Positions 4,665 through 41,618 of a DNA stretch of 56,740 nucleotides are shown in pieces (position 1 is the stretch's first letter; each line of letters opens with the position of its first letter). The notes under the pieces were generated by a model. It did no database searches, was not told where the DNA came from, and saw only the letters and a program-made list of their open reading frames with translations. Both the position numbers and the translations under genes were made by a program. The stretch covers positions 1 through 56,740 of the forward strand of contig DYPH01000016.1 of NCBI GenBank assembly GCA_020720045.1, written 5' to 3'. The DNA comes from Sorangium cellulosum (GTDB lineage Bacteria; Myxococcota_A; Polyangia; Polyangiales; Polyangiaceae).

Positions 4665-5464
4665 TCAGCGTTGACCCCAGGGGCGGAACGGCGTCGACTC
4701 CGGCGGGAGCCAGCTGGCGTTCCCTGCGCTGACGGTCGCTTTCGGCGTCATGCACGGCGGCGGCGGCGGAGGGACGGTCGGGTGCGCGGTGCGCGGTGCG
4801 AGGGCGCGTTCCTGGGCATAGAGTTCGGGAAATGCGTCGGCGCGGCCTACCGACGCGAGCGTATTTAGTCGAATTAAAAAGGGGAGTTCGTCGATGCGAA
4901 TCGGTCCGAGTGGCGGTGCCGCATCCAGCTCTTTTTCGAGGCGAGCGAGGGCGGTCGCTACCGGCGCCGACGGCGGCGCGTGGGGGTCGACGGTCGGCGG
5001 AGTGCTCGTCTGCAGGATCAGTTCGGCGCGCTCGCGGGCGCCGTTGAGGAGGACGGTCAGGAAGACCAACTGCAGAAATCGAGTGGTTTCCGTGCGAAGC
5101 CCGAGCCGCTCCCAGGGGAACAAAACCCCCGGTAGCCGCGCCCCACCGCCTCGAAGCCGTCGAGGAGCTGGACGAGGGCGAGCTCCTGGGGCGCGAGAAC
5201 CAGGGCCCGGGTCGGCGGCTGATCGGCAAGGAAATTCCGGATGATGCGCTCGGTGGCGTTGCACACCGGCGGCGTGATTCCCCGGGCATCGAGGCGCCGT
5301 CGCGCCGCAGGGACGCCGGTCGCGTACATCGTGCCGGTCGGCGCCTCCCCAGCGGCGCCGCGGAGGTGAATTGGCGCCTCGGGGAACAGCGAGAGTTCCG
5401 CCAGAAGGGGCGCGCCGACCGAGTAGCTGATGAGGGCGTCGTCGATGCGAAAGGTGGTGAGCAT
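4665..5464 (-). CDS. Unknown protein, interrupted by a frameshift
   Basis: Two minus-strand frames join into one protein of about 265 residues. The first begins MLTTFRIDDALISYSVGAPL at ATG 5464 and runs through LVQLLDGFEAVGRGYRG. The second continues VLFPWERLGLRTETTRFLQL and ends near PELYAQERALAPRTAHP with a proline-rich tail. Adding one G to the G5 run (C5 on the plus strand, 5126-5130) restores a single frame. No signal peptide or family was recognised. The second half is helical, and the tail PPPPPP is low complexity. It lies downstream of the TPR/barrel gene but in a separate frame and with an 86-bp gap. It may be a pseudogene or an assembly error. Confidence 0.5.
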
Positions 5465-5550
5465 CCGGCAAGCGTTTCACGCCCGACGAGGGGTGCCGAG
5501 GAGGAACATTGGCCTCCTACTGTGCGGCATTTGAAACGGGACCGCCGAAA

Positions 5551-8202
5551 TCAAAGGCGGGTTTCGAGGCGAACGCCCCCTTCATACATCCGGAATCCGG
5601 AGATGCTCGTGCTCGCCGAATTCGTCAGCTGCCCGTAAACTTCCCCGCGCAAATGCCGATGAAAACGAACGCCACCGCTGAGGAAAAAGCGGTAAATAGG
5701 TTGCGTGCTTTCCTGATTAATCTTCTGGAGACCGACGGCTGCAAGGGCATTGTAAACAAACGCCTTATTCGGATCGTCTTCCACGAGCTGCCCGAAGGCT
5801 TCGCCGACGATGAGCCGCGCCGGGCTGAAGTACGCGCGGGGGGAGGTCGCCGCGAAGCCGAGGAGCTGCCCGTTGACGCCGAGCTTTGCCGTCGGGCTCT
5901 TCGTGAGATCGCTGTAAATGCTTAAAAATGTGAGGCCACGCGCGTTGCCATCGGTGACGATCGCCGTCGCCGCCTCGGCGTAGAAGGAGAGCGGTCCGAG
6001 GAGCGGTCCGTTCGCCGTCGCCGCCACCGTGTGGAGCTGGAGCTTCGCGGCGATCATGCCGGCGGTGTAGGAAAAGGCGTCGCTCGTGTACCCGAGAGAG
6101 GCCTGGTATTTCGTCCCGATGCGACGCGTCGCCTTCGCTTGAAGCCAGGGGCGCAGCGTCCCGGACGTTCCGTCGGCGCTCATCCACTGGCCGCCGACGC
6201 GCCCGACAAGGGTGTAGCTTCCCCCTTCTCGAACGGTCAGTTGGGTTCCAAAACCGACGACCTCCCCGTGCATATTTACGTTTGTTATGACCGCTTTTCG
6301 TACGTTTGCATCGATAGCCAGTCTCCATTGACGATCGAGGTCAAACTCGCTCCGTGCCGCGTACGTCGTCGAGCGATTGGTCCCATTGTCCGTCGACGTG
6401 GAGAGGGCGACGCCAAAGCGCGGCGCATGGGCCTCCCGCAGCCGATCGAGGAAGCCTACGGCGTCCGGCGACGGGAATTTGCTTCCGGCGAGCGCCCCCT
6501 CGACGGTGCGAAACGCATCCCGCTCGAAGCCGAGGGCGTGGCTGGCGTCGGCGAAGCCGAGCTGGGCGTCAAAGGAGTCGGCACGCAGGGCGCGTGCTTG
6601 CCGGTAGAGTACGCGGGCCGCCTCGTAGTCGCCTTGCTGCATCCGAAGGCGCGCAAGGCCAAGAAGTGGCTCGACTTTCTCGGGAAACTGCTCGCACAAG
6701 CCGCGGAGGTTCCGCTCGGCATCGTCGTCGTGGCGCCGTTGGATTTCCGCGCCGGCCGACGCGATCGCCGCTTCGAAGAGCTCCGCTTTCGAGGTCGCGA
6801 GCGCCGAAGCGGTCTTTGCATAGGTGAGCACCGCGTCGTCATCGATCGGGAGCTGGGCGAGGGAGGTCCACAAGCGCAACGCCTTGGGATTCTTCACTGT
6901 TCCTGCGAGCAGTGCGGTGCGCGCCTCCTGGGGCCGTCGCTGGGCGAGGAGCGCGGAGCCGAGGAGGAGGGGCGCGTCGACGCTCGCCGGCATCGTCACG
7001 AGCGCCGCCCGCGAGAGGCGCTCGGAGGCGGCGAATTCGTGGCGGTCCATCGCCTGGTTGGCCGAGCGAATCTGGAGGCCGTGGATGAGCGTCGGGAGCG
7101 CCTCGCGGTCGGCGGGCGTCTTGGCGGCAGCGGTTGCTTTCTGAAGAAAGTCAGCCGCTTCCACGAGACTTCCATCGTCAAGGGCCGTCCAGAAGGCGCC
7201 CGCGAAGGTGCCGAAGTCGGCGGGGCCCTCGGCAATCGCCGCCGCATAAGCCTCTTTCGCAAGTGCGCGCGCTTGGGTCGAAAGGGCGGCGCTGCCGCGG
7301 GCACGAAGTAGGCAAAGTCTCGAATTTTTGATATTTTCTTGGGCCGACTCCGGCGGGCCGGGGACGAGCTTCAGCGCTTGGGCGGTAAGCGTCACGACCT
7401 CGGCGCCACGTTTCTTTTCGAGGAGGTTCCAGCTCGCCGCACATCCGTGGTCGAGGGTTGCGGTGGCGAGCTCGGGGCGCTGCCCGGCCACGGCCGCGAG
7501 CCGGTAAAATGCCGTCGCAGCGTCGCCATCCTCCCGCTGCATCGAGGCAATTCTTAGTAAAAACGGGCTTGGCGGCGTGCTCGTGAACGTGGCGAACCAG
7601 CGCGCACGTTCGGGGGCTGGCCAGGCGGCGACGGTGGCGAGGGCGGCGTCAGCGTCTTCCCCCGAATACTCGGCGGCCGCCAGGAGTCGATCGACGAGCG
7701 GCCCACGGGGGACCTCGACGGGCGCCTGCGTCAGTGCGGCGCGAAGGGCACGTCTTTCCAAGGTTTTTACCTCGGCGCGTCCCGGATCGAGCGTCCTTGC
7801 CGTCGCCAACGGGGCGAGCGCATCGAGGGGGAGCCCGCGCGCGAGGGCGAGATCGGCCTGGGCCAGGTATCCATCGACGAAGGTCGGGTCGAGGCGGGTC
7901 GCTTGGTCGGCACCCGGAAAATCGCCGCTCCAGAGCGCCAGGAGCCCGGTCGTGAGAGTCAATTCACAGCGTTCGTGGAGCGTCGCCGGCCGCGCCCGTT
8001 TCAGCGCCTTCTGGGCGCCCGCGGTGTCCTTCGCCTGGCCGAGCCGGCGTGCTTCCGCGAGTGCATCGGCAAACGGGTCGGCCGGTGCGGCCCCTGTAGC
8101 TGCCGCCTGCGCGACCGGTGCAGGGCTGCGCGCTGGCGCACTCCCCGGGGTGACCGCCGATCCATGCGCAAAGAGAAGGGTCGAGAAAAGTGCGGGGATC
8201 AT
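5551..8202 (-). CDS. TPR-repeat protein with C-terminal outer-membrane beta-barrel
   Basis: The 883-residue protein starts at ATG 8202, overlapping the upstream stop by ATGA. It begins with a signal-peptide-like segment (MIPALFSTLLFAHGSA). Residues about 40-580 are helical TPR-like repeats (ARGLPLDALAPLATARTLDP; LLGSALLAQRRPQEARTALL). From about residue 590 it switches to alternating beta strands rich in aromatic residues and ends GGVRLETRL, as expected for an outer-membrane barrel of about 290 residues. This architecture matches the exopolysaccharide exporters PgaA, BcsC and PelB, in which periplasmic TPRs feed a 16-strand pore. The coupled GH5-like gene supports that role by analogy. No glycan synthase is in the window, so the substrate is unknown. 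Confidence 0.7.
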   Translation of the reverse strand: MIPALFSTLLFAHGSAVTPGSAPARSPAPVAQAAATGAAPADPFADALAEARRLGQAKDTAGAQKALKRARPATLHERCELTLTTGLLALWSGDFPGADQATRLDPTFVDGYLAQADLALARGLPLDALAPLATARTLDPGRAEVKTLERRALRAALTQAPVEVPRGPLVDRLLAAAEYSGEDADAALATVAAWPAPERARWFATFTSTPPSPFLLRIASMQREDGDAATAFYRLAAVAGQRPELATATLDHGCAASWNLLEKKRGAEVVTLTAQALKLVPGPPESAQENIKNSRLCLLRARGSAALSTQARALAKEAYAAAIAEGPADFGTFAGAFWTALDDGSLVEAADFLQKATAAAKTPADREALPTLIHGLQIRSANQAMDRHEFAASERLSRAALVTMPASVDAPLLLGSALLAQRRPQEARTALLAGTVKNPKALRLWTSLAQLPIDDDAVLTYAKTASALATSKAELFEAAIASAGAEIQRRHDDDAERNLRGLCEQFPEKVEPLLGLARLRMQQGDYEAARVLYRQARALRADSFDAQLGFADASHALGFERDAFRTVEGALAGSKFPSPDAVGFLDRLREAHAPRFGVALSTSTDNGTNRSTTYAARSEFDLDRQWRLAIDANVRKAVITNVNMHGEVVGFGTQLTVREGGSYTLVGRVGGQWMSADGTSGTLRPWLQAKATRRIGTKYQASLGYTSDAFSYTAGMIAAKLQLHTVAATANGPLLGPLSFYAEAATAIVTDGNARGLTFLSIYSDLTKSPTAKLGVNGQLLGFAATSPRAYFSPARLIVGEAFGQLVEDDPNKAFVYNALAAVGLQKINQESTQPIYRFFLSGGVRFHRHLRGEVYGQLTNSASTSISGFRMYEGGVRLETRL

Positions 8203-10769
8203 GGCTTGAAAAACTCCTGACGAACCGCGATCCAGGCCGGCTTTGCGCGGTTGTTCTTGCGAAATAGACCGAACGAATCCCCGCGGCACTTCTCGCTACC
8301 GAGGGGCGAATCATCCGGTGAAGCGTCGACGTCTCCGAGCGTCCAGACGAACCCGTAAAACGGTTGTCGTCCGAGGCCCCGCGCGAACGCGTGGAAGTAG
8401 CCGGCCTGGAGGCGCTCTTCGGAGGGCTTGCCACGAAACCCGAATTCTGAAAGAACTACAGGCTTTTTCCCACAGCGTTTCCGCACTTCACTGAGGCGCC
8501 GTGCGACGTCGACCGGCGTCCCGAAGTCGCTGTAGGATACAAATGTGAGATCCCCCTCAAGGAGGCACGCGTGGTCGGGATCGCTCCACGAAATCGTTCG
8601 CGGGTGGTCGGGGTCGTAGCGTGTTGCGCGCTGCGCCACGAAGCGGAGAAATGCGAGAACGTCGTCCTCCGGTTGTACCTTGAATTCTGCGTCGGGACCG
8701 TTCATCAAATCCCACCCAAACAGTGCAGGATGTTCGCGGAAGGTGCCGAGGATCGCCTCGAGGTGACGGTCGACCTCGGGCCAGTAGGCGAGGTCGACGT
8801 TTCGGCGTCCGCCGAACAGCGTGAACAGGACGCGGAGGTGGTTGCGGAGGGCGAGATCGAGAATTCGCGCGAGGCGATCGAGGGCGGTTTCCGTCGGAAT
8901 GCCACCGCCGGCGCCATCGAAATGTACTGGAATTCTTACGAATTTTACACCGGCGCCGCCAAGGCGTTCGAAGTCGGCGGCCACTTTCGCGAGCGGGTCG
9001 GGCGGCTCGGTGTCTGGTTTGGTGAGCGCCGCATTGCGGACGAAATCGCCGCCGGCGAGGCCGCTTCGGACGTCGTTGATGCCGCGCACGTCGACGTCGC
9101 CGTTTTCGTCGACGAATCGGTCGCCCTCGGTGCGCACAGGCGCGAACGGGAGCGCCGGGAGCGGCGGCGGGGCCGGGCACGCAGCTGGGCCGATCCGCTG
9201 GAGATCGCTGATCTTCCAGTAGCCGTCTTCCAGGCGAAGGAGGGCGTCGAAGGTCCCTTCGTCGGAGCCCCGCGCGAGCGGTGCCCCTGTCTTCCGGTCG
9301 CGGACGACGAACGCGGTCCGGAGGCACCGATCCCGCACGTGGGCGACGCGCCCGTCGTAGGTATATTGATGAAGTTCAAGGGCATGCTCGAGGGCGACTT
9401 CATCGGTCTCGTAGGGGGAGACGTGGGCGCCGGCGACGCTGTCCTCCGCCCCACGAAGCGCCGGAGGGGCGAACTCCCGTTCGAGGGCAAGCGGGTGATC
9501 GGCTCGTTTTGCTTCAAACAATCGCCGCCAGGCCGCCTCATAACCCCGTTGGAGCGTCGTGCGGTTCCAGCGATCCATCGTTCGACCGACGTCCCCTGCG
9601 TCGGGGAGCCAGACGCTGCGCGGCCCCCACAAGATCTTCTCTTCGGTTTCGAGGAAAATCGGGACGAACGCTTTCGGACCCGGCTTCGCTGCGGCGACGA
9701 ACGCGCGGCCCACGAGGTAGGCGGTGACGACGATCATCACGAGGGCGCCGAGCCACTGGAACCCGCGGCGCGTGAGGAAGACGCGAAAGAGGGTTGGGAC
9801 CTGTTCGACGACGACGGCGAGGCGTCGCTTACCGGCGCGACGTACGCCTTTTTTCGAAAATTCAAGCTCTTCTGGCGTTGCTCGTCGAAGGCCTAGCGTT
9901 GATGTGTCCCCCCGGGGACGGAGCACGGGCACCGCAAACGGGGCGTGCCCGCGAGCGCGGACGCTCCGCGGACCGGCGTGAAGGCTCGCTGGCGCTCGTG
10001 ACGCAGGCGCCTGTGATTGCGGGCCCGCCGCGCGCTGGGAAACGGGGGCGGCGCTTCGCCGCGCGCCGTCACCGCGGTCGCTCCGCGTCGATTCGGGGCC
10101 GTTCCGTTGGGAAGAAGGCCCGTGAGACGCCCGTTGCGACCAGGCCGCTTCGCGGCGCGAGACCGGGGCGGCGCTCTCGCGGGCCGTCCGTCCCGGGGCG
10201 GCGCTCTCGCGGGCCGTCCGTCCCGGGGCGGGAGAATTGGTCTGTTGCGGCGATGCCGGCGACGACGCTCCCCGTATCGATTCGGGCCCGCCGCCCAGAA
10301 AGCCGGAGGTCAGCGACGGCGGCAGCGAATAGCTTTCCACTACGCGGGTCGACGTAGGGTAAGAACTGTAAATACGACCGCTTAGGCTTCGTGGCGCCCG
10401 GCTCGCGGGGATGCCGAAGGACGGCGGTCCGGTCTCTTCCGTGGGCGGACCGCTTGACGGCGTCGACGACGGCCTCGAAGCCTCGGCGTCGCCCTCCAGT
10501 CCGTTCGGGCTGAGGGGCGGCGGCTCGCCGCTATCCGGCGTCCAGGGCGCAAAACGGATCGCCCGCGGCGCTTCGTCTTCTTCGAAGCCCTCCGCGTCAA
10601 AGCTTGGAATTTGTGGCGGAAGCGGCGGAAGCGGAAGCGCGACCTTTGCCGCGCGCCGCAGCTTTCGGGCGACGCGGTCGGCGTCGCGCTTCGAGCTCCG
10701 AAGCGGCGGCCGTTGGGCGACCTGGTCCCCGATCGAAGGGGCGGGCACTTTCGCGCGCCGGCCGGTCAT
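8199..10769 (-). CDS. Membrane-anchored GH5-like protein lacking the usual acid/base Glu
   Basis: The 856-residue protein starts at ATG 10769, overlapping the upstream stop as ATGA. It has a disordered Pro/Ser/Arg-rich cytoplasmic N-terminus of about 330 residues, a transmembrane helix near 336-357 (WLGALVMIVVTAYLVGRAF) and then an exported region. Residues about 540-856 resemble a clan-A glycoside hydrolase of GH5 type: VDVRGIND, KFVRIPVHF, GWDLMNGPD and VVLSEFGFRG. The nucleophile candidate is Glu775 in VLSEFG. The acid/base position, normally NE(P), reads N-G-P with Gly691, so classical hydrolysis is doubtful. It may be a glycan-binding pseudo-enzyme or use another acid. Position between a beta-rich membrane protein and a TPR-barrel suggests handling of an exported polysaccharide. 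Confidence 0.7.
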   Translation of the reverse strand: MTGRRAKVPAPSIGDQVAQRPPLRSSKRDADRVARKLRRAAKVALPLPPLPPQIPSFDAEGFEEDEAPRAIRFAPWTPDSGEPPPLSPNGLEGDAEASRPSSTPSSGPPTEETGPPSFGIPASRAPRSLSGRIYSSYPTSTRVVESYSLPPSLTSGFLGGGPESIRGASSPASPQQTNSPAPGRTARESAAPGRTARESAAPVSRREAAWSQRASHGPSSQRNGPESTRSDRGDGARRSAAPVSQRAAGPQSQAPASRAPASLHAGPRSVRARGHAPFAVPVLRPRGDTSTLGLRRATPEELEFSKKGVRRAGKRRLAVVVEQVPTLFRVFLTRRGFQWLGALVMIVVTAYLVGRAFVAAAKPGPKAFVPIFLETEEKILWGPRSVWLPDAGDVGRTMDRWNRTTLQRGYEAAWRRLFEAKRADHPLALEREFAPPALRGAEDSVAGAHVSPYETDEVALEHALELHQYTYDGRVAHVRDRCLRTAFVVRDRKTGAPLARGSDEGTFDALLRLEDGYWKISDLQRIGPAACPAPPPLPALPFAPVRTEGDRFVDENGDVDVRGINDVRSGLAGGDFVRNAALTKPDTEPPDPLAKVAADFERLGGAGVKFVRIPVHFDGAGGGIPTETALDRLARILDLALRNHLRVLFTLFGGRRNVDLAYWPEVDRHLEAILGTFREHPALFGWDLMNGPDAEFKVQPEDDVLAFLRFVAQRATRYDPDHPRTISWSDPDHACLLEGDLTFVSYSDFGTPVDVARRLSEVRKRCGKKPVVLSEFGFRGKPSEERLQAGYFHAFARGLGRQPFYGFVWTLGDVDASPDDSPLGSEKCRGDSFGLFRKNNRAKPAWIAVRQEFFKP
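10165..10224 (-). repeat. Two tandem 30-bp repeats in the GH5-like gene
   Basis: Two identical 30-bp units (10165-10194 and 10195-10224) encode the decapeptide GRTARESAAP twice. They lie in the disordered N-terminal part of the GH5-like protein and look like a recent slippage duplication. Confidence 0.85.
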
Positions 10770-12155
10770 GGCCCGACCACCGCCGAGCCGCAGCGCCCGT
10801 CGTCGCAGGTCCAGGAATCTCGCGGGGCCGGCGCGTCGGTGGAGCGCTTCGCCGGCGGATGTGCGCCCTGTTCTCGTGCGCCGCGCTCTGGCGGCCGCGT
10901 ACCTCCGACGCGAAAGCGGACGCGGAGCGGCAGGCGCGCCGTCATCGCCGCGGGGAGCGTCCATCGTGCGTCGCCATGGTCGACGACGGCAAAGAGCGTC
11001 GCCTCCCCGCCGTCGGCGTCGGTGACCTCCGCGAACGCGTCGGTCCCATCGGGGACGAACTGGCCCATCGCCCCCAAAAAGGGCCCTGCGCGCAGGCGGG
11101 GCGGGGAGACGTCTCGGGTGTCCTCGTCGGGGCGGGAGACGCGCGCGGCGTGCCCCTCCTCGGAAAACGTAAATCGCGAGGGGAGTTCCACACCGGTGTC
11201 GTCGGCGGAACGAGAAATGCGTGGCGCCCCTGCTTCAAAGGCGACGAGCGTCGCCGCGTGCAGGCCGTGGGCGAAGGTGCATGCCGTCTCGGCGAGCCGC
11301 TTCCCGTCGCCATAGAGCGCGAAGTGGACCGTTTCGGCGATGGTCGGCGCCCGCACGTGCCACGTCACGCGTCCGTTCACCACCGGGACGCGCGCTTCGC
11401 GGACCCCCCCCTCCGTCGTCGCGCGCAACGTCAGTGCGTAGCCGTCGACGAGTGTATTTTGGGCAACATCAACCACGTGGCCGCTTCGGACCGTGACGAG
11501 CCGACGGCCGTCTGCGGTGACCTCGTAGTCGACGGACAGCGTCGTCGGTACCGGTCGCCCCGGCATCACAAAGAGCGAACGCTCGCTGCTGCTCGCTCCA
11601 CCGGAGACGGCGGCGACCGGCGCGACCCCCGCGCGAACACCGTGCGGCAGCCATCGCCAGGCGATCCCGCCGTCGGTCTCCGTCCGTAGCGTCGAGCGCG
11701 TTCCGTCCGGCAGGGTGATTCGAAAGTCGATCGGTGTGCCGTCGACGACGCGGTTGCCGTTGAAGTCCCGAAGGACCGAGTAAGCCATGGCGACGTCGCT
11801 TCCGGCGACGACGTTCACTGCGCGCTCCGGGTCGGCGACGCGGACCGAGGTCTGGCCGACGGTCAGTTCGATGGGGCCAGCAGGCGACTCTGGAGGAATT
11901 GTGAGCTCTTCCAGGGCATGCCCGTCGCTCGCCTCGCGCACGGCGACGCCGGCCGTCCCCGCCACAAACGCCGGCAAAGCGGGCGCGACGGCGAGCGGCT
12001 CCCCGGGGCCCCCCGCAAAGAGGGCTACGTGGCCGAACGCGTAGCCGACGAGCTGAATTTCTGCGTTCGCGCGCGGCAGGGCACGCGTGCGGCCCCGAAG
12101 CACGAGCGCCACCGCGAGGACCAGGCCCGCCGCGACGCAGCAACCGCCGATTCAC
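10766..12155 (-). CDS. Membrane-anchored beta-rich protein of unknown function, probably frameshifted near its start
   Basis: The open frame from GTG 12112 gives 448 residues, but upstream in this frame a transmembrane segment (CCVAAGLVLAVALVLRGRTR) runs back to a stop with no start codon. In another frame, GTG 12155 (MNRRLL) overlaps the regulator stop as GTGA, like the other junctions of this operon. Removing one base near 12135-12150 joins them into MNRR plus the membrane anchor. I therefore propose start 12155 with a frameshift. The rest looks like beta-sandwich modules (DGTPIDFRITLPDGTRSTLR; GTDAFAEVTDADGGEATLF) and ends with a short Cys-containing tail (WTCDDGRCGSAVV). No family was recognised. 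It is likely periplasmic and works with the next two genes. Confidence 0.55.
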
Positions 12156-13510
12156 CGGCGCGTCCCGCGGCGATCAAGCCGATATTCTTTGATTTTTCTG
12201 TATACAGTCGTCCGGCCAATGCCGAGCTCGCGGACGACCTGCCCGATGTCTCCGCCCGCCCGAACAAGCGCCTGCTGGAGTGCCTCCCGTTCGAGGTCGG
12301 CGAGGCGGTTTCGCCCCTCGACGGCGGGGGCGGCTGGCGTCGTTCGCTCGATGACGGCGGAGGGGGGCGGCGTCCGGTCTTCCGCCTCGCGCCCGTCGCG
12401 CCCGTGCTGGATGCGCGCGGGGAGGTGGGTGGTGAGGATCGTCGACGCCGCGCCGGCGGTCGCCTGCGCCAAGAGGGCGGCGCTTCGGAGGACGTTCTGC
12501 AGTTCGCGGAGGTTCCCCGGCCAGCGGTAGCGCTCGAGAAGGGCCCGCGCCGGCACCGAAAGGGTCACGCTCGGGGGGAGGAAATGGCGAAAGAGATCGT
12601 CGAGTTCCTCGGGATGCTCGCGGACGGGCGGGACTTCGAGTTCGTAGCCGGAAATGCGAAAGTAGAGATCTTCGCGGAACCGCCCCTCTTCGACAGCGAG
12701 CGAGAGATCTTCATGGGTTGCGGCGACGAGGCGCACCCGGCCTTCGATGTTGCCCTTGCGTTCCTCCAACGTGCGGAGGAGCGCCCCCTGGCTTCCGAGG
12801 GGGAGCGCACCGATTTCGTCGAGGAACAGCGTGCCGCCGGCGGCCCGTTGGAACGCGCCGGCCGCTCCGAAAAGCTCTTCGTCCACGGAACTTTCCGGAA
12901 TCGTTGAGCAGTTCAGTGAAACAAACGCCGTCTCCTTCGAGGTGTGGAGGGCCCGCGCAACGTTGTCCTTGCCGGTCCCCGTCTCGCCCATGATCAGCAC
13001 AGGCACGTCGCTCGCGGCGAGGCGTCCGAGCTGTCCGAGGAGCGGCGTCAGCGATTTTCGAAGCGCCAACGGGAGTTCGCTCGGCGCTGCTGGAGCCGAT
13101 TGCGGCTCGCGCCGGACGGCGGTCCGCGCGACGAAATCGGCGAGCGCCGACGGGGTGATTGTTCGCAAGTACTCGGTCGCTCCGCCACGCAGGGCGGCGA
13201 CCGCGCCGTCTATCGTAGGCCGTGCGGCAAGGACGACCACCGGGCGCCCGGCGGCGACCCTACGTGCTCGGAATACGGTCTCTGTCGGGTCGCCGAGCGT
13301 CGCGACGCAGACCACATCGGCGTCGACGGCGTCGACCAGGGTCCCACCCGCGTCCTCGATCGTCGCGGCGACGTCGTTTGCCCACAGCTGCGCTTCTGCA
13401 TGCTGTTCCGGCGTTGCATCCTCGGCGACCACAGTCCCCGACCAGACGGGGGCCGGCCGTCGCGGCCGCACGCCGGTCGGCGCATCCGTAAAATAAAGTG
13501 CTTCAGACAC
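12152..13510 (-). CDS. Sigma-54-activator-like regulator lacking the GAFTGA loop
   Basis: The 452-residue protein starts at GTG 13510, placed after a GGGGGA ribosome-binding site 6-7 nt upstream; a GTG seven codons earlier is less likely. The N-terminal 140 residues are receiver-like (VVLAARPTIDGAVAALRGGA) without a clear phosphoacceptor. The AAA+ domain has an intact Walker A (GETGTGKD, about 172-179) and Walker B (GGTLFLDEIG, about 223-232), an R-finger region (FREDLYFRISGYEL) and a C-terminal Fis HTH (VVRELGIGRTTVYRKIKEYR). Between ELFG and the Walker B the family normally has GAFTGA; here only AAGAFQRAAGG remains. That loop contacts sigma-54, so this may regulate without sigma-54. It heads a four-gene operon and probably controls it. 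Confidence 0.85.
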   Translation of the reverse strand: MSEALYFTDAPTGVRPRRPAPVWSGTVVAEDATPEQHAEAQLWANDVAATIEDAGGTLVDAVDADVVCVATLGDPTETVFRARRVAAGRPVVVLAARPTIDGAVAALRGGATEYLRTITPSALADFVARTAVRREPQSAPAAPSELPLALRKSLTPLLGQLGRLAASDVPVLIMGETGTGKDNVARALHTSKETAFVSLNCSTIPESSVDEELFGAAGAFQRAAGGTLFLDEIGALPLGSQGALLRTLEERKGNIEGRVRLVAATHEDLSLAVEEGRFREDLYFRISGYELEVPPVREHPEELDDLFRHFLPPSVTLSVPARALLERYRWPGNLRELQNVLRSAALLAQATAGAASTILTTHLPARIQHGRDGREAEDRTPPPSAVIERTTPAAPAVEGRNRLADLEREALQQALVRAGGDIGQVVRELGIGRTTVYRKIKEYRLDRRGTRR

Positions 13511-13701
13511 AATTTCCCCCGTTTCGAGCACTCGCGTCGCGAAGCGTGGGTCACGCTTCGTCCTGCGTTGTCACGCTGGCGGCCGCGCCCCCCGGCGCTG
13601 CCCCGTCCCAACATTTCTCCAAAATGGCACGAAATCCCTTGAAAAACAGGCTCGTGTTCCGAATCCGAACGTTGCTGCTTCTGGGACCCGCCAGGACCAA
13701 G

Positions 13702-13771
13702 TTGTTCCTCGCCCGCTAGCGCGGATCGAGGAACAAGTTCGTCCTCGCCCGCTAGCGCGGATCGAGGAACA
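13702..13771. repeat. Two tandem 35-bp hairpin elements
   Basis: Two adjacent 35-bp units (13702-13736 and 13737-13771) differ at only a few positions. Copy 1 folds on arms TTGTTCCTCG and CGAGGAACAA with an inner CCGC/GCGG stem around the self-complementary core CGCTAGCG; copy 2 has a mismatched left arm. They sit in the 287-bp gap between the regulator start (13510) and the stop of the Kelch lipoprotein (13798). They could terminate the latter or regulate the former. The rest of the gap shows no gene. Confidence 0.8.
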
Positions 13772-13797: not shown

Positions 13798-16614
13798 TCA
13801 CTCGGCGACGTAGCCGGCGACGGTCACGCGGAGGTCCCCTTTTTCGCGATCGGGGAAGGTCGCCGGGGCCGCCGCGTGAGTTCCGCTCCGGCAGGCCGGG
13901 AGATAGTTCACGTAGAAGTCGCCGCGCTCCGGCGGGAGGATGTCGACGACGTCCTCAAGGGCAAGCAAGGGGATCTCCACGGGGAGGGTGCGACCGGGCC
14001 GCACGCCGTCCGGGATCAGCCGGTCGGCGACCCAGCGAAGGTCGCCAGCGGGGGTATAGCTCGCGAGCAGGAGCACGGGAATTGTCGATGCGCGTGAGCT
14101 GTGATCAAAGAGCATTCCCTGAAGCGAATTTTCGTTTCGTATGCCATTTTCGAGGGTGAGCGGACGGAGCAAGTCCTTCGTGCCGACGACCGACTTTACA
14201 AAGAGTTCGAAGCGTTTTGGCGGTTCTCGGAGCCGCGTTGGAACCGTCCATGTCGGATCATAGCGCGCATCTTTTGCGAGAAGTGCCTCGCCATCGGGAT
14301 CGGAAAAATCGATGCGAAAGGGGGTCTCTTCGCCGGGAAGCAGCTTGTGGAGCGTCGCAAATTGGGCGTTGTAGCTGGCGACGACGGCGCCGCGCTCGTC
14401 GCGGAGCGTTCCTCGAATCGTGAGGTCGGCGGGGTCGGCGTCGACGTTTACCAGCTCGCCGACGATCGCGTAGTCGAGGCCGTGGCGAACGACGCGCGCC
14501 GTCCGTACGCAGACTTGCGGGCGATCGAGTTCGTCTTCCGCCTTCGTGCGGAGCATGTCGATGCGTCGGCGCCCGTGCGAGTACCAGCTCACATCGGCCG
14601 TTCGGAGGAGCGGGAGCTCCGGGGAGGTCGGATCGGCCTCCGGAATTCGCAGGTAGGCGGCCGCCCCGTCCCGGCGCAGGAGAACCGTCTCGTGGAAGGG
14701 GTAGGGGCCGAGCGCCGTCATCCAGACGCCGTTGATGGCGTGCTCGTCGCCGTCGGGCACGGTCCGGAGCTTGTCGGTGTAGTCGCCGCCGATCATGTAG
14801 AGGCGGTCGTTGAGGACGTTGCAGCCGAAGAAGTGGCGCGGCGAGAAGCGGTCGGCGGGGACCGGGTCGACGGCATGGGGCAGCTCGAGGGTCCACGTTG
14901 CGCCGTCTGGCGAACTCCAGACTTCGTTGGTGCTGTCGGTCGGCCAGCCGGCATAGGGCCCCTCGGCGAAGGTGTTCCAACCGCCGATCATCCAGTATTT
15001 GTGAGTGTTTTGCAGGTAGACGACGCAGGGGCCATCGCGGTGGGTCCATGCGGTCGTCGTGCCGTCGGCGTTCCGCGACGGGGCAATCATCGCCGTACGT
15101 CGCGTCCAGAGGTGGGACTCGCCCGCGTCGGAGCGGGCAACGCCATCGCGGGCGTCAAAGACGTGAACTTGCGAAAGTTCCGTCGGCGACCAGGCTTCGA
15201 CGGTCGCTGCCAGAAGGGTGCCGCTCGGGCTCACCAAGGCGACCGTGTGGGGGCCTGCCGTGACGGCCGGGGTCTTTGCGAAGACCAGGGCGTTGGAGTC
15301 GACGCGAAAGGGGATCGGGGCGCCGTCAAGGGTCACACCGGCGACCCTTGAGAGGCCGACGCCGGCGATCGTGAGGAAGGAATCGCCATCCTTATCAATA
15401 ATTTGGGGCGTCACAGCGCCGACGAGCGGCGGGACGGGGCCCGGGTCGGGGACGGGCACCGGTACCGGCCCCGGCTCGGGCACGGGCACCGGAACCGGGT
15501 CGGCGGTCCCCGTCGCCGTCGGGATCGGCGTCGGTGCGGGGCCGGGCGCCGGGCCCGGCGGGACGGTGGCGGTAACGGTCGGCACCGGGGCGGGGGACGT
15601 CGCGCCGCCAAAATAGCTGCAGGTGCCGTTGACCGCGAGCTCGTCGTAGCGGTCGACGCACACGTTCCCGCCGCCAGCGGGGTTCGGCGCACAGAGGTCG
15701 GTCGTGCACTGAAAGTCGGAGACGCAGGCATATCCGACCGGCGCTTGCCGCTGGCACACACCTACGCTCGGATCGGTGCTCGAGCAGAAGAGGCCCGACT
15801 GGCCGATTCCGTGGTAAGAACAAGTGTTTGAGCGTTGCTTCGTCTCCGTCGGGAACTCGCATTTGAGCTGGGAGCCGCGGATGATTCCGCACGTACCGAC
15901 GCCGTCCTTGCGGCCGATGCACGCGTCGTTGCTCGTGCACTCGATGTTCGCGCGGCAGCTGGCGCCCCGCGGAAGCGTGCCGACCACCACGTAGTCGCAG
16001 GCGTCGCGGACCGCCCGATGCTCGGCGGCGGTACGCACCGGCATCGGCATGTGGGTGAGCTTGTCGAGACAAGCGGCGGCGCGGGTCGCGTCGAAGGCGA
16101 GGTGCCCACCAGTCTTCACACCCGGAACGAGCAAGTCTTCGTAGACGTTTGAAAATCCGCCGCTGTACGTGGAGATGCATTGCTCGGTCTGCCAGCCACT
16201 CGGGGCTCCGCACGCGCTCGCCAGCGTCGCGCAGAACGCGGCCGCCTGGGCGCGCTGGAAGGCCTCGATTTCAGCTGCGCTCCCGGTGGCGGAACTCGCG
16301 TCGGCGACGTCGGAACTCGCGTCGGCGACGCTGGAACTCCCGTCGGCGACGTTGGAACTCCCGTCGGCGACGTTGGAACTCCCGTCGGCGACGTTGGAAC
16401 TCCCGTCGGCGACGCTGGAACTCCCGTCGGCGACGTTGGAACCCCCGTCGCTGCTGCCGGAGAGGCCGCTGTCGCTATCGGCGCCTGCGTCTTTGGAGCC
16501 CGGCGAAGGGCCACACCCGTCAAACCACCCGCCGTCGTCGGCGGGCGCGTTGATCGTCACACTGCACGCCATCGTCGATGATGCGAGCAGCAACCAATGA
16601 ATCTTCTTGAGCAT
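13798..16614 (-). CDS. Kelch/IPT-domain lipoprotein with an unrelated C-terminal part
   Basis: The 938-residue protein has a lipoprotein signal (LLLASSTMAC) and a GGAGG ribosome-binding site before ATG 16614. In order: a Ser/Asp-rich 7-residue repeat region (SNVADGS units, about 55-110), a Cys-rich region (about 130-320), a Pro-Val/Pro-Gly linker (PVPVPEPGPVPVPVPDPGP), an IPT/TIG fold (about 400-470) and Kelch-like blades (KYWMIGGWN, RLYMIGGDYTD). The part through about residue 620 is clearly paralogous to the protein at 38994-41288. After GVWMTALGPYPFHET the similarity stops, and about 310 different residues follow with no further Kelch blades. It may therefore be a domain chimera. It is likely surface-exposed; the ligand is unknown. 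Confidence 0.8.
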   Translation of the reverse strand: MLKKIHWLLLASSTMACSVTINAPADDGGWFDGCGPSPGSKDAGADSDSGLSGSSDGGSNVADGSSSVADGSSNVADGSSNVADGSSNVADGSSSVADASSDVADASSATGSAAEIEAFQRAQAAAFCATLASACGAPSGWQTEQCISTYSGGFSNVYEDLLVPGVKTGGHLAFDATRAAACLDKLTHMPMPVRTAAEHRAVRDACDYVVVGTLPRGASCRANIECTSNDACIGRKDGVGTCGIIRGSQLKCEFPTETKQRSNTCSYHGIGQSGLFCSSTDPSVGVCQRQAPVGYACVSDFQCTTDLCAPNPAGGGNVCVDRYDELAVNGTCSYFGGATSPAPVPTVTATVPPGPAPGPAPTPIPTATGTADPVPVPVPEPGPVPVPVPDPGPVPPLVGAVTPQIIDKDGDSFLTIAGVGLSRVAGVTLDGAPIPFRVDSNALVFAKTPAVTAGPHTVALVSPSGTLLAATVEAWSPTELSQVHVFDARDGVARSDAGESHLWTRRTAMIAPSRNADGTTTAWTHRDGPCVVYLQNTHKYWMIGGWNTFAEGPYAGWPTDSTNEVWSSPDGATWTLELPHAVDPVPADRFSPRHFFGCNVLNDRLYMIGGDYTDKLRTVPDGDEHAINGVWMTALGPYPFHETVLLRRDGAAAYLRIPEADPTSPELPLLRTADVSWYSHGRRRIDMLRTKAEDELDRPQVCVRTARVVRHGLDYAIVGELVNVDADPADLTIRGTLRDERGAVVASYNAQFATLHKLLPGEETPFRIDFSDPDGEALLAKDARYDPTWTVPTRLREPPKRFELFVKSVVGTKDLLRPLTLENGIRNENSLQGMLFDHSSRASTIPVLLLASYTPAGDLRWVADRLIPDGVRPGRTLPVEIPLLALEDVVDILPPERGDFYVNYLPACRSGTHAAAPATFPDREKGDLRVTVAGYVAE
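16291..16450 (-). repeat. 21-bp tandem repeat encoding a 7-residue motif
   Basis: Seven 21-bp units begin at 16291, 16312, 16333, 16354, 16375, 16396 and 16417, followed by a partial unit at 16438. On the minus strand they encode S-S/N-V-A-D-G/A-S heptads in the low-complexity stalk just after the lipoprotein anchor. Units are nearly identical, so copy number probably varies between strains. Confidence 0.95.
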
Positions 16615-38993: not shown

Positions 38994-41288
38994 CTATTCG
39001 GCGTTCCAGCGCCCCATCGCCCACTGGTGGAGGCGCTCGATTTCGTCGGCGGAGGCGACACGGTCAAGGACGACGACCGCGCCGAGCTGGCCAAAGAGGG
39101 GATCGTAGCCGCCGGCGCCGACGCCGACGGTTCGCCACCCGGAGTCGTTCGGGTAGGGCCACTTCGCCTTGCCGAGCGATTTCCCGGCGGCGAAGGCCTC
39201 CACGGTCCCGGTCGTGGGGTCTTGGGTGATCGCGTAAACGCCAATTTTTCCAGCGTTTTCTGAGAATCCGCCTCCAAACGGCGACAGGACCCACTCGCCC
39301 GTCGGCTTTCGCACGGTGACGGCGAGGGCCCCGTCCGTGAGCCCGAACGCCACATCTTGGGCGCCGTCTTCGCTGTCCCCAAGGACGGTCGCGCGCGGAT
39401 TCTTTTCGGAATGGGGGAGCACCTGATGGTCGACGTCTGACGGAACGAATGGCGACCGCCCGACCCACGCAATCGTGCGCCCCGCCGGCTGGAGGGCACG
39501 CGCCGGGAGGTCGAGGGACGTGCTGAGGCCGTCGAAGGTGAGGGCGGCGCCGCCGCCAAGATTGCTGAAGTCGAGGGCGGTCGCGCCGCTCGACGGGAGC
39601 TCGGCCGGGAGCCCGTCGGCTTTGAGGGGCGCCTTCCCGCCGGTTGCGCGGAGGGTGAGCGTCCCAGTCCCTCTTTCTTTCCAGGTACTTACGCGCGGCC
39701 CGTGGACGACGTCCATCCGCCAGGTCTGCGTGTCGAAGTAGTTCCCGAGCGTGTAATTGCCGCCGGCCATCACAAAGCCGTTCGGCCCGACGGCGATTCC
39801 ATCGGCATGCGACTCGTTCCACGGGAGCGCCCCCTCGGCCTCCGAGGTCCACCTCTCGCCGTCGGTCGTAAACCACGATTCTCGCAGATTAAACGAGCCA
39901 TCGTTTGTGTAGCCGGCGATCAGCCACATCTTCCCGTCGAAGACTTTCACCGTTGCGTAGCGGCGCCCGATCCAGGGGGGCGTCGCGTGCTTTTTCCAGG
40001 TAATTCCGCTGCCATTGTCGACGCCGTCGGTGCTCCAGACCTCCTGGAAGAACTTCTCATAGCCGTCAACCGTGTAGCGACCACCGCCGACGAGCCAGAG
40101 GCGCCCGTTGAACTCGACGAGTTCGCTGATGATTCCGCGCGGCGTCGGCCGTTTCGTCTGGCTTTCGTTGAAGTCGTTGTCTTGGACGCGGGTCCAGGAG
40201 ATCCCGTCGGCCGATGACCACAAATCGTTGTAAAAGCGAATGTCTGCGGGGTTTTCTTCGACCAAGCCGTTCTGGCCGCCAAAGACCCATAGCTTGTTCT
40301 TGAAGGTGCCGGCGACGTGGAGGATGCGCGGCTGGTTGATCGGGGCGACCATCCAGGGGAGCGGCGACGGGCTTTTTGTCCAGTTAATTCCGTCGCTTGT
40401 CGACCACGCGTCGTCGTGGTAGCGCGTGCCTTGCGCCCAGACGTCCGGATCGCCCGGGGTGTCGTTCGGCACGTACGCGCCGTTGGTGTAGTCACCGCCG
40501 ATCATCCAGAGGCGGTCGTTGAGGAGCGTACAGCCGAAATAATGGCGCGGCGAAAACCGCGTCGGAGCGGTGTCGGGGAGCGGCTGGTGGGCCATTTCCA
40601 GGTCCCACCGCGCGCCGTCCGCGGAACTCCAGATTTCATTCGTGCTGATGCTCGGCCACCCGGGGAACAGGGCGTCGAGGTCGGAGCCATTCCAGCCGCC
40701 GATCATCCAGTATTTGTTTGTGTTTTTCAGGTAGGCGACGCAGCTGCCATCGCGACGTATCCAGGGGACCGCCTTGCCCGACGCGTCGCGCCCGGCCGGA
40801 ATCGCGTCGATGAGCCGGGTCCAGAGATGGAACTCGTTCTTCGCGCCCGGCGTGACGTTGTCGCGGGCGTCGAAGGTGTGGCTATTTGCGAGCTGTGTTG
40901 GTGCCCAAGCTTTGATTTTTCCGAGAGAAATCGTTTCCGTCGCCGTCACGACCTCCAAGGAATGGAGACCAACGCCGACGACGCCGACCTTCGTCCGCAC
41001 CGCCGTTCCGCTCACCACGAACGGGAGTGGGTTGCCGTCGAGGAGCACCTTCGTCGCCGCGGCGACGCCGGGCCCGCGAATCACGACGGTGGAGTCGCCG
41101 GTCGGGTCGACGACGGTCGGGAAGGCGGTCGGGACCGTCGGCTCGGTGTTCGCATCGGCGTCAGCGTCGGAGCTGCCGTCGATGGGGGCGGTGGCGTCGG
41201 CCGGCGTCGCGCCGGGTTTGGAGCCGCACGCCACTGCAAGGAGCGGAAAGAGACCGAGCGCCGCGACAAGGGGAAGAAGGGTACGCAT
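38994..41288 (-). CDS. Kelch-repeat lipoprotein with IPT and LamG-like domains
   Basis: The 764-residue protein starts at ATG 41288 with a lipoprotein signal (LGLFPLLAVAC). An IPT/TIG-like domain (DSTVVIRGPGVAAATKVLLD) precedes at least six Kelch-type blades marked KYWMIGGWNG, RLWMIGGDYTN, KLWVFGGQNG, RLWLVGGGRYT, KMWLIAGYTND and GFVMAGGNYT, each paired with a WSS/T-DG strand. The last 200 residues resemble a LamG/concanavalin fold (FGQLGAVVVLDRVASADEI, then ERLHQWAMGRW). It is paralogous to the N-terminal two-thirds of 13798-16614. It is probably surface-attached and sugar- or protein-binding. Confidence 0.88.
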   Translation of the reverse strand: MRTLLPLVAALGLFPLLAVACGSKPGATPADATAPIDGSSDADADANTEPTVPTAFPTVVDPTGDSTVVIRGPGVAAATKVLLDGNPLPFVVSGTAVRTKVGVVGVGLHSLEVVTATETISLGKIKAWAPTQLANSHTFDARDNVTPGAKNEFHLWTRLIDAIPAGRDASGKAVPWIRRDGSCVAYLKNTNKYWMIGGWNGSDLDALFPGWPSISTNEIWSSADGARWDLEMAHQPLPDTAPTRFSPRHYFGCTLLNDRLWMIGGDYTNGAYVPNDTPGDPDVWAQGTRYHDDAWSTSDGINWTKSPSPLPWMVAPINQPRILHVAGTFKNKLWVFGGQNGLVEENPADIRFYNDLWSSADGISWTRVQDNDFNESQTKRPTPRGIISELVEFNGRLWLVGGGRYTVDGYEKFFQEVWSTDGVDNGSGITWKKHATPPWIGRRYATVKVFDGKMWLIAGYTNDGSFNLRESWFTTDGERWTSEAEGALPWNESHADGIAVGPNGFVMAGGNYTLGNYFDTQTWRMDVVHGPRVSTWKERGTGTLTLRATGGKAPLKADGLPAELPSSGATALDFSNLGGGAALTFDGLSTSLDLPARALQPAGRTIAWVGRSPFVPSDVDHQVLPHSEKNPRATVLGDSEDGAQDVAFGLTDGALAVTVRKPTGEWVLSPFGGGFSENAGKIGVYAITQDPTTGTVEAFAAGKSLGKAKWPYPNDSGWRTVGVGAGGYDPLFGQLGAVVVLDRVASADEIERLHQWAMGRWNAE

Positions 41289-41618
41289 AGGGGAAGGGGC
41301 CTCGGTCCCGGGACGTTGGCGAACCCCCCTTTTGTGGCATGACCGGTCGAAAAGGATCACCGGAGTGCGCACATTACCGAAGTTTCGGAAATGGCACCGC
41401 CTTCGCCGGTGGCCTCACGGCGCGTCCGTCCGCGGAGCGGGAGACGGCGCGGAGTTCTCCGCAAACGCCATTCCTGAAATTTCTTAACGAGTTCCTCGCC
41501 GTCCGGCGACGCGCCGGATCGGAGCGCCGGATCGGAGAACCCCGTGGCCCTTGCCACCGCCGATCGTTCGCCGCCATTCCCGCGCCGGAAGGGCCCCCTC
41601 TTGAAGTAGGACCGCCCC
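41289..41618. other. Divergent gap with one repeat copy
   Basis: This 330-bp gap separates the Kelch lipoprotein and acyltransferase genes, transcribed away from each other. Apart from a copy of the dispersed palindromic repeat (41501-41540) no gene or clear promoter was seen. Confidence 0.6.
41501..41540 (-). repeat. Dispersed palindromic repeat with duplicated half
   Basis: GTCCGGCGACGCGCCGGATC is followed by GGAG and then a second GCGCCGGATCGGAGAAC, so one arm is duplicated. It lies 78 bp upstream of the acyltransferase start. Confidence 0.85.

Follow-up and report, generated by a model that had tools for sequence, protein, structure and literature searches.

A gene cluster of Sorangium cellulosum as the probable export half of a conserved exopolysaccharide system

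Gene content of the locus

This analysis concerns a 56,740-nt stretch of Sorangium cellulosum DNA (contig DYPH01000016.1, hereafter the window) and, within it, four minus-strand genes with a predicted role in polysaccharide export. They encode a regulator resembling bacterial enhancer-binding proteins (bEBPs), a beta-sandwich protein, a protein resembling glycoside hydrolase family 5 (GH5), and a protein that joins tetratricopeptide repeats (TPRs) to a predicted outer-membrane barrel (Table 1). All four open reading frames (ORFs) lie where a sequence-only reading of the window had located them. Comparison with the corresponding contig of a congeneric genome (L004) gave ratios of nonsynonymous to synonymous substitution (dN/dS) of 0.11 for the GH5-like gene, 0.13 for the beta gene, 0.07 for the TPR gene and 0.11 for the regulator. 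The four are therefore real genes under purifying selection, with strong coding constraint; the two GH5-like proteins are 95% identical.

Table 1. Features of the locus, with positions in the window
Feature	Position	Strand	Basis
bEBP-type regulator (degenerate receiver-like N-terminus, AAA+ domain, Fis-type helix-turn-helix)	13531/13510-12152	minus	ORF and Pfam
Beta-sandwich protein	12112-10766	minus	Alignments, HMM matches, weak Pfam Invasin_D3
GH5-like protein	10769-8199	minus	ORF, profiles, Foldseek
TPR protein with predicted C-terminal 16-strand outer-membrane beta barrel	8202-5551	minus	Pfam, AlphaFold2, Foldseek, VIA-align
Frame-breaking 23-nt loss at the GTGA overlap	12127..12155	minus	Comparison with congener contig L004
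C-terminal periplasmic domain of a multi-membrane protein (putative polymerase), membrane part missing	13798..14760	minus	blastp and profile
5' part of an unrelated Kelch-repeat lipoprotein gene, fused in frame	14761..16614	minus	Comparison with congener contigs L021/L022
Pair of 36-nt direct repeats lying between regulator and upstream ORF; a GTTCCTCG...CGAGGAAC hairpin can form in each	13693..13770		

The genes had been described as coupled throughout by 4-bp overlaps. The ATGA overlaps at 10769-10766 and 8202-8199 are indeed in frame. A GTGA does occur at 12155-12152, out of the beta frame because 23 nt have been deleted relative to the congener. Two 9-bp GCGTCGCGG repeats are involved, and the missing segment is exactly one unit between them. 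In L004 the GTGA is in frame and the sequence encodes an N-terminal membrane anchor of the beta protein, as the sequence-only reading had proposed. In the window, the beta ORF shares the frame of the regulator and follows its stop codon, with GTG 12112 as the first usable start, so the anchor sequence at 12112-12151 has no in-frame ATG, GTG or TTG start.

The TPR protein resembles export secretins in its predicted structure

The N-terminus of the TPR protein matches TPR_19 (6e-8) and other TPR families in Pfam and is modelled by AlphaFold2 as helical repeats. These are followed by exactly 16 C-terminal strands (residues 595-882, about 5557-6420), in a model built from three sequences with a mean pLDDT of 67.7 and a pTM of 0.40. 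A Foldseek search with this model returned BcsC first and also recovered the PgaA barrel, while VIA-align gave Z scores of 25.7 for BcsC, 24.3 for PelB and 24.1 for PgaA. The next family in the VIA-align listing was OmpG at 17.5, with no further porin-export family close to the first three. As modelled, the TPR protein thus groups structurally with the BcsC/PelB/PgaA secretins, having, like them, a TPR superhelix in the periplasm and, after it, an outer-membrane barrel of 16 strands (Z 24-26), although its sequence identity to them is only about 10%. Among relatives, Pfam barrel matches are weak or absent (BCSC_C 8e-4, PgaA_barrel 0.014, both below the cut-offs), in contrast to BcsC and PgaA themselves. 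The TPR-plus-barrel layout of an export porin, on which the export interpretation had been made to depend, was therefore borne out by the model. By analogy with BcsC, PelB and PgaA, a polysaccharide may be transported through the predicted barrel.

The GH5-like and beta-sandwich proteins

The GH5-like protein comprises a disordered cytoplasmic N-terminus (residues 1 to ~335), one transmembrane segment, a small alpha/beta domain with a conserved LEDGYWKI motif, and a GH5-type TIM barrel. A cytoplasmic N-terminus had been suggested earlier, and the single transmembrane segment at about 335-362 agrees with it; since the structure model is weak (mean pLDDT 52.6), the domain boundaries rest on sequence. 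No Pfam domain was recognised in the window protein, and its homologue in a Bacteroidota locus (L005) matches Pfam Cellulase at 2.4e-14. A fold of the GH5/clan GH-A type is supported by profile matches to endoglucanase, mannanase and beta-glucuronidase and by Foldseek matches to GH5_18 and mannanases.

The catalytic residues of this fold are partly lost. In both Myxococcal copies the acid/base Glu of the NEP motif is replaced by Gly (NGP; window codon 8697-8699), whereas it is Glu in 12 of 12 others. The nucleophile Glu775 (8445-8447) is retained in the window protein, so that both catalytic glutamates of GH5 enzymes occur in the 12 relatives but not in the window or L004. Although the TIM barrel, the nucleophile and one Arg and one Trp are kept as in clan GH-A glycosidases, the conserved beta-6 His has also gone from the Myxococcal copies. 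Because the acid/base is lost, the probable role of the Myxococcal protein is to bind glycan and not to cleave it.

The beta protein is a periplasmic Ig/invasin-D3-like beta-sandwich by a weak Pfam match (Invasin_D3, 1e-4). Alignments and HMM matches identified a homologue in every Bacteroidota locus described below and in Deinococcus sp. KNUC1210.

Related gene sets in Bacteroidota and Deinococcota

We scanned the GH5-like protein against contigs of 84,980 species, and matches were obtained in the congener, one Flavobacteriaceae contig and one Saprospiraceae contig. On both of the latter a beta homologue adjoins the GH5-like gene and a TPR-barrel homologue lies nearby, with a family 4 glycosyltransferase (GT4) and a flippase between; the Flavobacteriaceae contig additionally carries a family 2 glycosyltransferase (GT2). 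A large multi-membrane gene precedes the beta gene, of which the Saprospiraceae contig (L006) holds only the C-terminal end, at the contig edge.

A profile of the multi-membrane core, searched against 296 Bacteroidota genomes, matched in 10. In all ten loci (L005, L045-L053) the multi-membrane (~1030 aa), beta, GH5-like and GT4 genes lie within about 12 kb, and a GT2 and a flippase gene are present, the latter upstream of the multi-membrane gene in L048 and L049. The TPR-barrel gene was found in nine; the tenth contig ends prematurely. The GT2 is fused to a receiver domain at L045:14865-16067, the one locus examined and confirmed with Pfam, and has homologues in L046-L053; it is possibly an enzyme of glycan synthesis controlled by phosphorylation. 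The best NCBIfam match of the Bacteroidota GT4 was EpsE (4e-11), while the flippase matched no NCBIfam model and the multi-membrane protein had no Pfam, NCBIfam or PDB relative. Beside the polysaccharide locus of L005 (17462-20393) lie genes for an H-NOX (haem-NO-binding) protein, a PAS histidine kinase and an Hpt protein, and L005 also carries a response regulator; ORFs resembling the H-NOX/kinase/Hpt set, judged by look rather than scanned, stand beside L006, L047 and L050.

In a tblastn search of plasmids, query P0001 gave no match, whereas the flavobacterial homologue revealed a related set, most of it annotated as hypothetical proteins, on megaplasmids of Deinococcus. These megaplasmids carry the flippase, GT2, GT4 and multi-membrane genes, with clear beta and GH5 matches only in Deinococcus sp. 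KNUC1210 (L015), whose GT2 carries the annotation dolichyl-phosphate glucosyltransferase. Directly 3' of the GH5-like gene of this strain (L015:19661-24624) are genes for an MBOAT acyltransferase, AlgF and an AlgX-like protein, which suggests that its polymer is O-acetylated. The H-NOX/kinase neighbours and the Deinococcus acetylation genes fit a biofilm matrix polymer without proving it. A second, diverged multi-membrane copy on the D. aquaticus megaplasmid (L016:19003-22212) matches only part of the core profile.

The four genes had been expected to co-occur in relatives, and the beta, GH5-like and TPR genes do so in Bacteroidota. The regulator does not accompany them, and no such set was met in other Myxococcota: in 38 genomes of the order the GH5-like search matched only generic glycosidases, and these weakly, and a search of 189 Myxococcota genomes did not recover the multi-membrane core, so that the synteny is with other phyla instead.

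Fate of the synthesis genes

As in the conserved seven-gene module, the window has its beta, GH5-like and TPR-barrel genes side by side. Of the multi-membrane protein, only the C-terminal domain is present, as residues 627-910 of ORF 13798-16614 (blastp 3e-34 to L005; profile 1.9e-52), a state that misassembly could explain. The first ~618 residues of this ORF are a Kelch lipoprotein that forms an intact 1118-aa frame in the congener (L021/L022), and the two Kelch sequences diverge at about 14760. As read from the alignments, half a Kelch gene, itself unrelated, runs on in the contig into the final part of the candidate polymerase. This Kelch lipoprotein family occurs twice in the window, at 38994-41372 and in ORF 13798-16614, the second being 44% identical to the first over residues 355-621 of the first.

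At about 14760, the synthesis genes may have been truly deleted or lost through misassembly. We lean slightly towards misassembly, because the congener too is without the whole stretch upstream and the two assemblies are in many pieces (357 and 730 contigs). The statement that the module has no synthase is thus true of this contig and not of the system, since relatives carry the GT2, GT4, flippase and multi-membrane genes and the multi-membrane C-terminal domain lies just upstream, outside the coordinates first considered.

Proposed export pathway and alternatives

We propose, with a probability of about 0.75, that the window carries the export half (periplasm and outer membrane) of a system for exopolysaccharide synthesis and export that is conserved and apparently undescribed. 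The two findings that would have spoken most directly against export, lack of a barrel and lack of co-occurrence, were both looked for, and the model survived. In such a system, the GT2, usually with a fused receiver domain, and the GT4 present in relatives would build a glycan or a lipid-linked donor, which the MOP-superfamily flippase may carry across the inner membrane. The multi-membrane protein, with its C-terminal domain on the periplasmic side, would polymerise or ligate the glycan, and the beta-sandwich and membrane-anchored GH5-like proteins would handle the chain in the periplasm. Docked to these two proteins, the TPR domain could then pass the chain into the predicted 16-strand barrel. 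In the Myxococcal lineage, the GH5-like protein without its acid/base would most likely bind or guide the chain, and the bEBP-like regulator, its GAFTGA loop truncated, appears to have been inserted upstream.

Several points weigh against this proposal. We infer the polymer and the activities of every member, and the polymerase role of the multi-membrane protein from its membrane spans and position. Confidence in the barrel model is moderate, the window proteins share only 15-25% pairwise identity with the Bacteroidota proteins, and the barrel gene was unrecognised in the Deinococcus loci. The multi-membrane core and the flippase were found neither in the genome of the window nor in the congener, where the GT2 and GT4 were not searched; the positive controls of the core search rang, and the flippase search had none.

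This last result would also be expected if the Myxococcal lineage had deleted the synthesis genes and kept the beta, catalytically dead GH5-like and TPR-barrel proteins as a repurposed remnant truly without a synthase, which would export or retain a polymer from another source or act as a surface adhesin or porin. The in-frame fusion of the Kelch 5' part to the multi-membrane C-terminus and the loss of the acid/base in the GH5-like proteins of both species point the same way. We nevertheless consider such a remnant rather unlikely: the Kelch gene of the congener is intact and unfused, retention of the multi-membrane C-terminal domain implies a very recent event or misassembly, and the two assemblies are fragmented. 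Processing of capsule, O-antigen or host glycan, with the barrel as an uptake porin, would suit a GH5/GH2-like catalytic fold, which is common to degradative enzymes. It appears very improbable, given that the TPR-barrel scores much higher against export secretins than against general porins and that in relatives it stands beside glycosyltransferases and a flippase.

The remaining alternative is that the system is not a kind of its own but a diverged form of Pel (PelA/PelB/PelF/PelG-like). The relatives share with pelABCDEFG, in outline, a GT4, a MOP-type flippase, a periplasmic glycosidase and a TPR-barrel, and PelB is within the top three structural matches of the TPR protein. They differ from it in their large multi-membrane protein, receiver-GT2 fusion, beta-sandwich and STAS proteins and in the GH5-like nature of the glycosidase. 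To our knowledge, Pel systems have neither a large multi-membrane protein nor a receiver-GT2, the very components on which the cluster is centred. The GT4 and flippase also lacked a Pel-named NCBIfam match, the presence of such models in the library not having been checked; overall, we regard a Pel origin as improbable. The Bcs (cellulose) and Pga (poly-N-acetylglucosamine) systems likewise pair a hydrolase with a TPR-barrel, but no processive GT2 synthase of the BcsA/PgaC type was recognised in the cluster.

Returning to the synthesis-export system, we see about an even chance that it represents an additional class of exopolysaccharide machine with a TPR-porin, occurring in Bacteroidota, Deinococcota and a single genus of Myxococcota, with a new multi-membrane polymerase family, a receiver-switched glycosyltransferase and a matrix polymer. 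If so, a whole exopolysaccharide pathway has been overlooked in flavobacteria and on Deinococcus megaplasmids, mostly as hypothetical proteins, and its cultivable members would open the polymer, the polymerase family and the receiver-controlled glycosyltransferase to direct testing. No description of the gene set was found in the open-access literature, subscription papers not being covered, and none of Bacteroidetes, Deinococcus and Myxococcus is named in an operon survey (PMC7112194). We considered EPS273 of Pseudomonas stutzeri as a possible described homologue and rejected it, as its Wzx flippase, O-antigen ligase and Wzz-domain protein were read as a Wzx/Wzy-type locus.

The regulator and additional features

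The regulator matches Sigma54_activat (2e-35), HTH_8 (8e-12) and AAA_lid_14 (1e-11) in Pfam and thus combines the AAA+ domain and Fis-type helix-turn-helix of bEBPs. Its GAFTGA loop is shortened to GAFQRA in the window (GAAGAFQRAAGGTLFLDEIG) and to GAFHRA in L004 (GAFHRAAGG), with AGG following directly in both; because of this truncation, activation of sigma-54 appears doubtful. A dedicated bEBP-like regulator had been listed as part of the system; the gene is present, but it is lineage-specific and lies outside the conserved module.

Downstream of the TPR gene, at 4665-5480, one gene is apparently split over two minus-strand frames near 5100, possibly by an assembly indel.

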